Source of the DNA: Pseudomonadota bacterium
Lineage (GTDB): Bacteria; Chloroflexota; UBA5177
Reading direction: 5' to 3'
DNA: 63,171 nt
Assembly: GCA_021324655.1 (NCBI GenBank)
Contig: JAJPIP010000012.1
Coordinates: forward strand, 1-63,171
Below, one piece after another: positions 18,169 through 33,656 of this stretch (the first letter of the stretch is position 1; the number at the start of each line of letters is the position of its first letter). Below the pieces are notes generated by a model. The model had not been told where the DNA came from. It saw only the letters and a list, made by a program, of their open reading frames with translations, and ran no database searches. The position numbers and the translations under genes were made by a program.

Positions 18169-18801
18169 GTGACGCAGCCCGGTCCGACACTCGAGCTGGA
18201 GGCGAGCCTCGTCGCCCAGGGATTCGACCGTGTCGCGGGCATTGATGAAGTGGGGCGTGGGAGCCTGGCCGGCCCGGTGGTGGCCGCCGCCGTCATCTTT
18301 CCCCGCTGGAACTCTGCACCGGACGAGTTATCCGGAGTGCGCGACTCAAAGCAGTTGGATAGCGCGCGCCGGGAACAGGCTGCTGAGCGAATTCTGTCGC
18401 TGGCCCTCGCGGTCGGCCTGGGATGGTCCTGCCACCATGTGATCGACCGAGAGGGTATCGCGGCTGCAAACCGGCTCGCGATGTTGCGCGCCCTCGGCCG
18501 GCTCGGAGTGACTCCGCACGCACTGCTTCTGGATCATGTCCGCTTGCCGACCTGCCCCCTCCCGCAGACGGCGCTTCCCAAGGCCGACTGCCTGTCACTG
18601 TCGGTCGCGGCAGCGTCCATCATCGCCAAGGTCGTGCGCGACCGATACATGCGACTGGCCGATGCTCTGTATCCCGACTACGGCTTTGCCTCCCACAAGG
18701 GCTATGCGACGGAGATGCATCTAGCCGCGATCGCCGAGCGCGGCGCCTGCCGCATCCACCGCCGCAGTTTTCGACCCTTCGCGCCGTCGTTGCTGCCGTG
18801 A
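18169..18801 (+). CDS. rnhB: Ribonuclease HII
   Basis: Removes ribonucleotides and RNA from RNA-DNA hybrids. The 210-residue product carries the catalytic signature VAGIDEVGRGSLAGPVVAAAVI (Asp-Glu pair), a further Asp in LLLDHVRLP, and the C-terminal YGFASHKGYATEMH motif. It starts with GTG. The next gene, yraN, begins inside its stop codon, and the rplS-rnhB-yraN order is common in bacteria. Confidence 0.95.
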   Translation: MTQPGPTLELEASLVAQGFDRVAGIDEVGRGSLAGPVVAAAVIFPRWNSAPDELSGVRDSKQLDSARREQAAERILSLALAVGLGWSCHHVIDREGIAAANRLAMLRALGRLGVTPHALLLDHVRLPTCPLPQTALPKADCLSLSVAAASIIAKVVRDRYMRLADALYPDYGFASHKGYATEMHLAAIAERGACRIHRRSFRPFAPSLLP

Positions 18802-19154
18802 CCCTCGGTTCCTTCGGCGAAACCTGGGCTCTCGGGTATTTGCGCCGGGCCGGGTATCGAGTCATCGACCGGAACGTGCGTTTCCGGGTCGGAGAGCTCG
18901 ACATTGTCGCCTGGGACGGCGATACGCTGACCTTTATCGAAGTGAAGACTCGACGGTCGGGGCGCTACGGCACTCCGGCGGAATCGATCACCGCCAGCAA
19001 GTATCGCCATCTCGCCGCCGCCATCGAGCAATATCTGCAGCTGCGTCATCTCGCTGCCGCCAACTACCGCCTCGACCTCCTGGCCCTGTTGGTCGGACGG
19101 GACGGAGATGTTGTCAGTTGCGAGCTTCTCCGCGGCATCGAGCCACCGGAATGA
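18798..19154 (+). CDS. yraN: UPF0102 (YraN) family nuclease-fold protein
   Basis: A 118-residue protein of the YraN family, which has an endonuclease-like (PD-D/ExK) fold. Visible are GSFGETWALGYLRRAGYRVIDRN, then VGELDIVAWDGDTLTFIEVKTRRSGRYG with the Glu, Asp, Glu and Lys of the presumed active site, and SKYRHLAAAIEQYL. The GTG at 18798 overlaps the rnhB TGA (GTGA), showing coupling. Its cellular substrate is not established. Confidence 0.92.
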   Translation: MTLGSFGETWALGYLRRAGYRVIDRNVRFRVGELDIVAWDGDTLTFIEVKTRRSGRYGTPAESITASKYRHLAAAIEQYLQLRHLAAANYRLDLLALLVGRDGDVVSCELLRGIEPPE

Positions 19155-19205
19155 CTCCACCGCTTGGCCGGTGGCGTCTGACCTTGTTATTGTGCGATAT
19201 GACTT

Positions 19206-19319
19206 GGGCGCTCATGTGCTGTTGTCTTGGGCTGGACGGGATAGTGGTCGCGGAGGCGGCGCGCAGTCACTAGACAGACCCGTGGAACTTTATGAGCCGG
19301 CCGCCGGGCCGGTTTTTTT
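19206..19319 (+). ncRNA. Structured leader RNA of metX, candidate riboswitch
   Basis: The 180-nt gap before metX can fold into nested helices closed by GCTCAT (19210-19215) with ATGAGC (19292-19297). Inside are ACGGG/CCCGT (19236-19240, 19279-19283), TAGTG/CACTA (19242-19246, 19268-19272) and CGCG/CGCG (19249-19252, 19260-19263). A strong intrinsic terminator follows at once and ends 16 nt before metX. This is the layout of an aptamer plus expression platform. I see no SAM-I, SAM-II, SAM-IV, cobalamin or T-box consensus in it, so the ligand, if any, is unknown. Confidence 0.5.
19297..19319 (+). terminator. Intrinsic terminator before metX
   Basis: CCGGCC, a 4-nt loop and GGCCGG are followed by seven T. 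It is 143 nt behind yraN but only 16 nt before metX, so it more likely acts as an attenuator in the metX leader than as the end of the rplS operon. Confidence 0.85.
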
Positions 19320-19334
19320 GTTGGCTGGAGAGGG

Positions 19335-20522
19335 ATGACGGCAGAAGTTCAGGCAGGATCGGTGGGCGAGGTCGAGACCCGTGTCAAGCGTTTGTCGAGG
19401 CCGGTGCGACTCGAGGCCGGCGGTTACCTGTCTCACGTCGAGATCGCGTACGAGATCTACGGCACCCTCGCGCCGGCACGCGACAATGCAATCCTGGTCT
19501 GCCATGCTCTCAGCGGCGATGCCCACGCCGCCGGATGGCGGCCCGGTACCCCGAGCGCGGTGGACGGGTTCGGCGCGGAGGACAAGCAGGCCCTGCCGGG
19601 TCTTGGATGGTGGGACGGGCTGATCGGGCCCGGCCGGGCGCTGGATACCGACACCTACTGCGTGATCTGCTCCAATGTCATCGGCAGCTGCCGCGGCTCG
19701 ACGGGGCCGGCCTCTCTAAGCCCGGCGACCGGCCGCCCCTATGGGTCTTCTTTTCCGGTCGTCACCGTTGGGGACATGGTTCGCGCCCAGCGTCTCTTGC
19801 TCGACGAGCTGGATATTCCGCGGCTACGCGCGGCGATCGGCGGATCGCTGGGCGGGATGCAGTCGCTGGAGTGGGCTCTGGAGTACCCGGATCGCATCGA
19901 CGCGGTGATCCTCACCGCCAGTACCGCCCGACTGGGAGCGCAGGGCCTCGCATGGAACGCGATCGCGCGAAGCGCCATCATGGCGGATCCGAACTGGCAA
20001 GGTGGAGACTATCTGGACACGACACGCCGTCCTGACCCCGGCCTCGGAGTGGCTCGGATGGTGGGTCACGTCACGTACTTGTCTCAAGCCGGCATGGCCG
20101 AGCGGTTTGGCCGCCGCCTCCAGGAGCGCGACGCGTACAGCTATACGCTCGACAATCCTGACTTCGCCGTGGAGAGTTATCTTCGACACCAGGCCGAGAC
20201 GTTCCCGCGCCGCTTCGACGCCAACAGCTACCTCTATCTGTCCCGTGCCCTCACATACTTCGACGCGGCACGGGCTTATGGACGCGGCTCTCTGCCCGAG
20301 GCTGTCCGCCGAATACGGGCAGAGACCCTCCTCATCTCCTTCGACTCCGACTGGCTCTATCCGACGTCCGATTCCATCGAACTCGAGTCCGCCTTGCGCG
20401 CCGCGGGGAAGTCCGTCGAACGACACGAGCTGTCGGCTCCCTACGGCCACGATTCGTTTCTCCTGCAGACCGACCAGCAGACTTCGATCATCCGCCATTT
20501 TCTTGCCCACCTCGCCGCGTGA
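19335..20522 (+). CDS. metX: Homoserine O-acyltransferase (MetX type)
   Basis: Activates homoserine, most likely to O-acetylhomoserine, as the first committed step of methionine synthesis. The 395-residue product has the alpha/beta-hydrolase pattern of MetX: LVCHALSGDAHAAG, the oxyanion and nucleophile elbow GGSLGGMQSLEWA, the acid in FDSDWLYP and the His in YGHDSFLL. The segment ICSNVIGSCRGSTGP is also diagnostic. An ATG with GGAGAGGG follows directly after the leader terminator. metY is 12 nt downstream. Acetyl rather than succinyl donor is assumed from the partner gene. Confidence 0.95.
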   Translation: MTAEVQAGSVGEVETRVKRLSRPVRLEAGGYLSHVEIAYEIYGTLAPARDNAILVCHALSGDAHAAGWRPGTPSAVDGFGAEDKQALPGLGWWDGLIGPGRALDTDTYCVICSNVIGSCRGSTGPASLSPATGRPYGSSFPVVTVGDMVRAQRLLLDELDIPRLRAAIGGSLGGMQSLEWALEYPDRIDAVILTASTARLGAQGLAWNAIARSAIMADPNWQGGDYLDTTRRPDPGLGVARMVGHVTYLSQAGMAERFGRRLQERDAYSYTLDNPDFAVESYLRHQAETFPRRFDANSYLYLSRALTYFDAARAYGRGSLPEAVRRIRAETLLISFDSDWLYPTSDSIELESALRAAGKSVERHELSAPYGHDSFLLQTDQQTSIIRHFLAHLAA

Positions 20523-20534
20523 AGGGATTTTCTT

Positions 20535-21860
20535 ATGTCAGGTGACAATGCCGGGATACGTGAGTTCGGGTTCGATACGCGGGCCGTACATGCCGGTCAG
20601 CGCCCCGATCCCTATACGGGGGCGCGGGCGGTTCCCATCTTCCAGACCACCAGCTACGTCTTCGAGGATCCCGAGTCGGCGGCCGCCTACTTCAATCTTC
20701 AGGAGTACGGCAACACCTACTCACGCATCATGAATCCGACAGTCGCCACGTTCGAAGAGCGTATCGCGAGTCTGGAGGGAGCGGTAGGCGGAGTTGCCTT
20801 CGCCAGCGGACTCGCCGCCCAGGCGGCCGCTCTCTTCACCATGCTCGAGTCGGGAGACCACGTCGTGGCCTCGAGCGCGCTGTACGGCGGGTCCGTCACG
20901 CAACTGAAGCACGTCCTGCGGAAATTGGGAGTGGCGCTCACCTTCGTGGACCCCGACAGGATGGAGGAATGGGAGGGGGCCATTCGGCCCGACACGAAGC
21001 TCCTCTTCGGCGAGACCATCGGCAACCCCGGCGGAAACGTCCTGGATATCGAGGCGGTTGCTGCTCTCGCCCACCGGCACGGCATGCCCCTCATGGTGGA
21101 CAACACCTTTGCTACCCCATATCTTTGCCGGCCCATCGACTGGGGCGCCGACATCGTCGTCCACTCCGCCACCAAGTTCCTGGGCGGCCACGGGACGAGC
21201 ATCGGAGGTGTGGTCGTTGAAGCGGGGAAGTTCGATTGGTCCAACGGCCGCTTTCCGGTCGTTGCGGACCCGTCACCCGCCTATCACGGCCTGGCCTTCC
21301 ATGAGACATTCGGCATGTACGGCTACCTGATGAAGCTGCGAGCCGAGTCGCTCCGCGACCTGGGTGGTGCCATGAGCCCGTTCAACGCGTTTCTATTCCT
21401 CCTCGGCGTCGAAACGCTGTCCCTGCGCATGGACCGGCACGTGCGGAACGCGGTCGAGGTCGCACGCTTCCTGTCGGATCACCCGGGGGTCGAGCGGGTC
21501 CGGTACGCCGGGCTGCCCGACAGTCCCTACGCCCCCCTCGCCGCGAAGTACCTGCCGAGGGGAGCGGGGGCCGTCTTCGCCTTCGACGTGCATGGCGGAC
21601 GTAGGGCCGGGACGACCCTCATCCAGTCGCTGGACGTCTGGAGTCATCTCGCCAACGTCGGCGATGCCAAGAGCCTCATCATTCACCCCGCCAGCACCAC
21701 GCATCGCCAGTTGACGGATGACGAATTGGCAGCGGCCGGCATCGGCCCGGGAACTATCCGCCTCTCGGTCGGCATTGAGGATGCCGGCGATCTCATCTGG
21801 GACTTGCGCCGTGGCCTCGAGAGAGTGACGGCGCAAACTCCCGAAGAGGTCACGGCATGA
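20535..21860 (+). CDS. metY: O-acetylhomoserine sulfhydrylase
   Basis: PLP enzyme that makes homocysteine from O-acetylhomoserine and sulfide (direct sulfhydrylation). The 441 residues start with FGFDTRAVHAGQRPDPYTGARAVPIFQTTSYVFED, the usual opening of this subfamily. The cofactor Lys is in VVHSATKFLGGHGTS, and the long MetY-type insertion around DPSPAYHGLAFHETFG is present. It lies between metX and a CoA-binding gene that overlaps its stop by 4 nt. Confidence 0.95.
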   Translation: MSGDNAGIREFGFDTRAVHAGQRPDPYTGARAVPIFQTTSYVFEDPESAAAYFNLQEYGNTYSRIMNPTVATFEERIASLEGAVGGVAFASGLAAQAAALFTMLESGDHVVASSALYGGSVTQLKHVLRKLGVALTFVDPDRMEEWEGAIRPDTKLLFGETIGNPGGNVLDIEAVAALAHRHGMPLMVDNTFATPYLCRPIDWGADIVVHSATKFLGGHGTSIGGVVVEAGKFDWSNGRFPVVADPSPAYHGLAFHETFGMYGYLMKLRAESLRDLGGAMSPFNAFLFLLGVETLSLRMDRHVRNAVEVARFLSDHPGVERVRYAGLPDSPYAPLAAKYLPRGAGAVFAFDVHGGRRAGTTLIQSLDVWSHLANVGDAKSLIIHPASTTHRQLTDDELAAAGIGPGTIRLSVGIEDAGDLIWDLRRGLERVTAQTPEEVTA

Positions 21861-33557: not shown

Positions 33558-33656
33558 TGGCGGGAGTGCATGGGAGTCGAACCCACCCGGGAACGCGTCG
33601 CGCGCCCCCGCAACGGTTTTGAAGACCGCGCCACTCACCGGAGCAGCCGCACTCCC
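33558..33656 (-). tRNA. selC: tRNA-Sec (anticodon TCA)
   Basis: A 99-nt tRNA on the minus strand with encoded CCA (33560-33558). The acceptor is 8 bp (GGGAGTGC with GCACTCCC), longer than in normal tRNAs, as known for bacterial tRNA-Sec. The anticodon loop is CTTCAAA with TCA at 33622-33620, which reads UGA. A long variable arm (CGGGGGCGCGCGACGCGTTCCCG region) precedes the T loop TTCGACT. The organism should therefore insert selenocysteine; selA, selB and selD are not in the window. Confidence 0.95.

Follow-up and report, generated by a model that had tools for sequence, protein, structure and literature searches.

A candidate Met/Cys leader-peptide attenuator upstream of metX-metY

RESULTS

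A short ORF and an intrinsic terminator lie between yraN and metX

The window, by which we mean the whole stretch of 63,171 nucleotides analyzed here, carries on its plus strand the genes rplS-rnhB-yraN, followed after ~180 nt by metX-metY and a gene for a protein with a CoA-binding domain. The neighbor on the 5' side, behind rplS and rnhB, is a gene of the yraN family (18801 to 19154; NF009154 above cut-off). The identification of metX in an earlier note on this DNA is supported by NCBIfam: metX (19335 to 20522), which encodes a protein of the homoserine O-acetyltransferase family, matches NF001209 with 474.5 bits (cut-off, 331), and metY (20535 to 21860), which encodes an O-acetylhomoserine sulfhydrylase, likewise matches TIGR01326 with 605.5 bits (cut-off, 495).

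Directly upstream of metX is an intrinsic terminator (19296 to 19318, plus strand) with a stem of 7-9 bp, a GCCG loop, and a run of seven T (GCCGGCC-GCCG-GGCCGGT followed by the T run). The earlier note had placed a terminator 16 nt in front of metX, and both the sequence and a terminator scan agree with this; a site scan found 3 terminator-like sites per 600 nt compared to 0.3 expected. The metX start at 19335 follows the U-tract after only ~16 nt, which is too close to the terminator for metX to have a promoter of its own.

Most of the sequence that the earlier note had described as a structured leader is filled by a short ORF that was overlooked. This ORF (19199 to 19273, plus strand) has 24 codons (MTWALMCCCLGLDGIVVAEAARSH), begins with ATG ACT TGG GCG CTC ATG TGC TGT TGT CTT GGG CTG, and ends with the TAG stop codon at 19271-19273. 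The codons ATG TGC TGT TGT (Met6 Cys7 Cys8 Cys9; 19214 to 19225) are the putative sensing codons. The frame is open back to an ATG at 19151, giving a longer form of 40 codons (19151 to 19273; MTPPLGRWRLTLLLCD-MTWALMCCC...) that overlaps the yraN stop codon in an ATGA motif, so that read-through from rplS-rnhB-yraN would yield transcripts on which these codons are translated as well.

No Shine-Dalgarno sequence is present before the window ORF. A putative promoter (19164 to 19193) is formed by TTGGCC (19164-19169), 18 nt, and TATTGT (19188-19193); it was missing from the sites listed by a stricter consensus scan. The -10-like TATTGT ends 5 nt 5' of the ATG at 19199, which corresponds to a leaderless geometry, and, counting both strands, only 14 of the 1,738 ATGs in the window (0.8%) have a TANNNT box 5-7 nt before them. 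Judged from its sequence, the ORF is probably leaderless.

ORF and terminator recur before metX in a genome of the same family

For comparison, we used seven genomes of the class, including G002, which is from the same family as the window genome. Only in G002 did we find a comparable metX leader. The G002 leader ORF (positions 1335 to 1418 of L002; MTARCIMRPMPCYRMIPGPGWHGVGRA) occupies the same place before metX, and its stop codon is followed by 25 nt, the terminator ACCGGCCGCAGGGCCGGTTTTTT, and then metX. A -10-like box, TAAGGT, ends 6 nt before its ATG, with TTGGTC 17 nt farther 5'; in both genomes, a TANNNT box is thus located 5-6 nt before the ORF start. In the alignment, ATG TGC TGT TGT of the window lies in frame opposite ATG CCC TGT TAC of G002 (Met-x-Cys). 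The window leader combines a Cys-Cys-Cys run with a -10-like box at the spacing of a leaderless start, whereas the two Cys of the G002 ORF are apart from each other. The two terminators match at 93% over 28 nt, and the conservation between the two leaders is for the most part limited to the terminator and the codons for Met and Cys, with no aptamer-like block.

Retention of the terminator in relatives, which the earlier note had made a touchstone of its reading, was found in part: it is kept in G002, and no other close relative has a terminator in a metX leader devoid of an aptamer; leader and terminator are absent before metX in G001, G003, and G006. When the phylum was searched with the leader DNA, the G002 terminator was the sole convincing match, and the other matches were 19-35 nt long and chance-like.

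The G002 locus helps to weigh two other explanations. First, the hairpin could be a plain intrinsic terminator of the rplS-rnhB-yraN operon, with metX being expressed by leak-through or from an unseen promoter; indeed, yraN lies on the same strand and ends just 140 nt farther 5'. In G002, however, the gene 5' of the metX leader points in the opposite direction and has its start ahead of the leader, so that the terminator can act only on the metX leader transcript and not on an upstream operon, and yet it is kept. As the spacing to metX also leaves no space for a promoter, we consider this explanation unlikely. Second, the ORF could encode a small hydrophobic, possibly membrane, protein, made in its 40-codon form by coupling to yraN, with Met and Cys being incidental. 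This would fit the hydrophobic, signal-anchor-like stretch in the longer form as well as the ATGA overlap, whereas the ORF at the same place in G002 lacks a hydrophobic character, is preceded by a divergent gene, and has kept its Met/Cys richness, which makes a small protein very unlikely.

Met and Cys codons are enriched in both leader ORFs

Met and Cys were picked post hoc, after the window peptide had been seen, and G002, having been seen in the same output, represents a second case and not a fully blind test; read in this light, 4 of the 23 non-initial codons of the window ORF (binomial P, 9e-4) and 5 of the 26 of the G002 ORF (binomial P, 1.3e-4) are for Met or Cys, based on a Met+Cys background of 1.9% of residues in nine window genes. 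Start-anchored dinucleotide shuffles, in which base composition is kept and which are more lenient, gave values of 0.012 for the window and 0.013 for G002.

We then counted ORFs with an ATG start, a length of 15-45 codons, a position near the gene, and at least four Met/Cys codons making up at least 15%. Such ORFs are present in 2 of 86 metX upstream regions, i.e., those of the window and G002, in none of the 84 other metX upstream regions, and in none of 56 control regions of the class (before ilvB, trpE, cysK, leuA, metK, and metH). Before cysK, trpE, leuA, metK, and metH of the relatives, we found several T-boxes instead of Met/Cys leader peptides.

A search of the seven class members for the pattern ATG...TGYTGY...TTTTTT, the spacing limit of which is too short for the window leader, gave counts close to those of a reversed-pattern control in most genomes. 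Two matches, G003:C60 and G004:C51, are Cys-rich; on inspection, G003:C60 was not convincing as a leader. Separately, a similar Cys-rich ORF of 24 codons is located ~500 nt 5' of the metX match in L013 and L014, which are from one genus (VSNCCMPGSCDPNRNMYGWMLNNC and VLNCCMPGSCDPNRNMYGWMLNCC, respectively); it may represent a gene read in the wrong frame.

The leader matches no known riboswitch class

The earlier note had suggested an attenuator before metX that lacks a known riboswitch. Our data agree on this point: the terminator is present, and an Rfam scan of the window yielded no match at gathering score except for a tRNA gene elsewhere and, thus, no known riboswitch class. The tRNA gene is for selenocysteine (tRNA-Sec; 33562-33656, minus strand; RF01852, 75.4 bits). 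At loose E-values, the region from 19100 to 19400 gave just two chance matches, both with E>3. Neither the SAM, SAH, and SAM-SAH covariance models nor the T-box model RF00230 matched the leader of the window or G002, and positive controls for both were detected before metX in other genomes. Because Rfam searches detect SAM-I riboswitches and T-boxes well in this phylum, the lack of a match at the window leader is informative.

As one possible mechanism, the earlier note had named a new or strongly diverged riboswitch for SAM, SAH, methionine, or homoserine, which would act directly on the terminator. A terminator and a GC-rich leader do precede a methionine gene here, and other metX genes of the phylum do have SAM riboswitches in front of them. 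However, no Rfam riboswitch matched up to an E-value of 10 in the window leader or 5 in the G002 leader, while the same tool picks up SAM-I riboswitches and T-boxes at other metX loci; the leader folds no better than shuffled sequences (z, −0.69 with and −0.89 without the terminator); and the two leaders share no aptamer-like block, their similarity residing chiefly in the terminator and in the codons for Met and Cys. We therefore regard a riboswitch as quite improbable. A degenerate, tRNA-sensing T-box leader would fit with the T-boxes that precede metX in several genomes of the phylum, but the sub-threshold T-boxes of relatives have E-values of 1e-9 to 1e-19, whereas the window has no match up to 10, and the space between yraN and the terminator is no more than ~160 nt; a T-box is extremely unlikely.

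The nested helices that had pointed the earlier note to a sensor were closed by GCTCAT (19210 to 19215, plus strand) and ATGAGC (19292-19297). This inverted repeat is present in the sequence, but a meaning beyond chance is not evident from the z-scores given above, and one perfect pair of 6-nt arms per ~120 nt is at chance level (estimate, ~1.5 pairs). The arms share sequence with the base of the terminator stem and pair only if its 3' arm is missing; in folds of the full-length leader, the terminator always prevails over this pairing (P, ~0.99). A ribosome on the ORF would hide GCTCAT. Neither the diverged sensor nor the alternative named with it, an attenuator without a peptide, is supported by a leader that holds a Met/Cys-rich ORF in leaderless geometry, as the G002 leader also does.

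Leaders of other genes and genomes in the family and phylum

Upstream of ilvB, we identified clear leader peptides rich in Ile/Leu/Val in two members of the family. In G003 (L204), the peptide contains IFVIILPILVILSVLVLIAG and is followed by the hairpin/terminator AAGGCCTCCCGAACGGGAGGCCTT-TTCTTT; the peptide ends in GGIFVIILPILVILSVLVLIAGAGGWRS and a stop codon, and next come AAGGCCTCCCGAACGGGAGGCCTTTTCTTT and ilvB. In G002 (L205), the peptide contains VLLISIISVLLPVL and ends in GGVLLISIISVLLPVLEVPGGSTGG and a stop codon, behind which lie a GC hairpin and then ilvB. On the strength of these sequences, leader-peptide attenuation appears to be native to the family of the window genome.

In other genomes of the phylum, the leaders of metX contain SAM-I riboswitches and T-boxes, several of them with a terminator. 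In L016 (862-1373) and L018 (806-1366), a SAM-I riboswitch and a T-box, both detected by Rfam, are arranged in tandem before metX. A further tandem of this type precedes metX in L193 (426-534 and downstream), in which the T-box was recognized by eye only. Three genomes of one family (L140, L142, and L143) share ~200 nt of conserved, GC-rich, and apparently non-coding sequence at most ~350 nt before metX (...GGGGACCGGTCGGCCCTTTCGGGTTGTCGA...GTCGCGTGGTCTAGCTCACCAGGCAGG...); this block matched no Rfam family, was not recognized as a tRNA or tmRNA, and is possibly an unannotated RNA. Just 5' of metH in G002 (L251) and G003 (L254), the sequence between a -10-like box and metH contains short GC hairpins with T-rich stretches behind them, as in CCGCCGCATCAAGGCGGCGG-CTCTTTCT; these could be attenuators without a leader ORF.

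A model for attenuation by the leader peptide

The ORF, its codons, the terminator, and the recurrence of these elements in G002 can be read directly from the DNA. Together, they make it likely that metX-metY is preceded by a ribosome-mediated, leader-peptide transcription attenuator that senses the supply of Met and/or Cys. We infer the promoter, the translation of the ORF, stalling, antitermination, and which of Met and Cys counts.

In this model, a transcript starting at ~19199 would have a 5'-terminal AUG and would be translated at once to give a peptide of 24 residues. With ample Met-tRNA and Cys-tRNA, the ribosome would reach the TAG at 19271-19273, and the sequence ahead of the terminator would have no antiterminator strand to pair with; the GC hairpin and U-tract would then form, and RNA polymerase would halt before metX. 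When the cell runs short of charged Met- or Cys-tRNA, the ribosome would stall at ATG TGC TGT TGT and free the downstream leader to hold the 5' arm of the terminator, either by pairing of GGCTGG with CCGGCC or by pairing of GGCGGC with GCCGCC. Antiterminated transcription would enter metX-metY and, in this way, favor the formation of homocysteine and then methionine.

We folded the leader up to the terminator loop with the ribosome at different codons. The candidate antiterminator strand GGCTGG (19230 to 19235, plus strand) pairs with CCGGCC (19297-19302) when the ribosome is at codons 4-7, and at codons 6-7, the occupancy of the terminator 5' arm is 0.86. With the ribosome at codons 8 to ~16, the alternative pairing involves the second candidate strand, GGCGGC (19255 to 19260, plus strand), and GCCGCC (19300-19305). 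Near the stop codon, the occupancy is at most 0.40, and the arm is largely free. The sign of this change is as required for attenuation; because dinucleotide-shuffled spacers equalled or exceeded the antiterminator occupancy in 18-22% of trials for codons 6-7 of the window and in 14-17% for codons 10-12 of G002, the folding with ribosome positions is a consistency check and not evidence. Since the terminator is favored almost everywhere at full length, antitermination would have to be kinetic and occur during transcription.

DISCUSSION

When the control of methionine genes is discussed, the focus is usually on SAM riboswitches and T-boxes. A search of the open-access literature for a leader attenuator with Met codons before a methionine operon found no earlier report; the type of switch is known, and the sensed amino acid is what lacks an earlier report there. 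In a survey of Actinobacteria from 2005, leader regulation was found for cysteine and none for methionine (PMC1262725), and a survey from 2010 added Firmicutes to the leader-peptide systems, which had previously been described from Proteobacteria and Actinobacteria only (PMC2965389).

If the model is correct, a Met/Cys leader peptide before metX-metY, together with the ilvB leaders, would add both a phylum and an amino acid to those for which the mechanism is known. It would also pose a puzzle, i.e., how methionine can be sensed by a peptide whose own initiation needs Met-tRNA; we speculate that the cysteine codons may solve it. Chances are about even that the leader is a leaderless attenuator in which mixed Met/Cys codons sense sulfur amino acid supply and an intrinsic terminator controls a methionine operon, in a bacterial family in whose phylum other members rely on SAM riboswitches and T-boxes to control this gene. 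The phylum is probably the Chloroflexota, as named Chloroflexales records are among the near relatives of metX.

The metX leaders with SAM-I (RF00162) or T-box (RF00230) resemble the window leader in being RNA leaders before the same gene, several with a terminator, but the window matches neither model. The trp, his, leu, and ilv attenuators share with it a short ORF with codons for the product of the pathway and, behind it, an intrinsic terminator before the first gene. The window leader differs from these classical systems in its Met and Cys codons, the metX-metY operon, and the apparently leaderless start, and its antiterminator occupancy is within the range of shuffles. The ilvB leaders of G002 and G003 have the same order of leader peptide, hairpin, and first gene and are from the same bacterial family; they contain Ile/Leu/Val codons in place of Met/Cys, and the comparison concerns architecture only.

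Mycobacteria are reported to have leaderless short ORFs encoding polycysteine (Canestrari et al. 2020, cited in PMC13236596), for which candidates were reported earlier (PMC1262725). These ORFs are described as regulating by translation attenuation (PMC13236596) and as having no conserved terminator hairpins (PMC1262725). The window leader is similar to them in that a short, probably leaderless ORF containing consecutive Cys codons precedes genes for sulfur amino acids, and it differs in having a strong intrinsic terminator, a Met codon within the run, and a methionine operon behind it.
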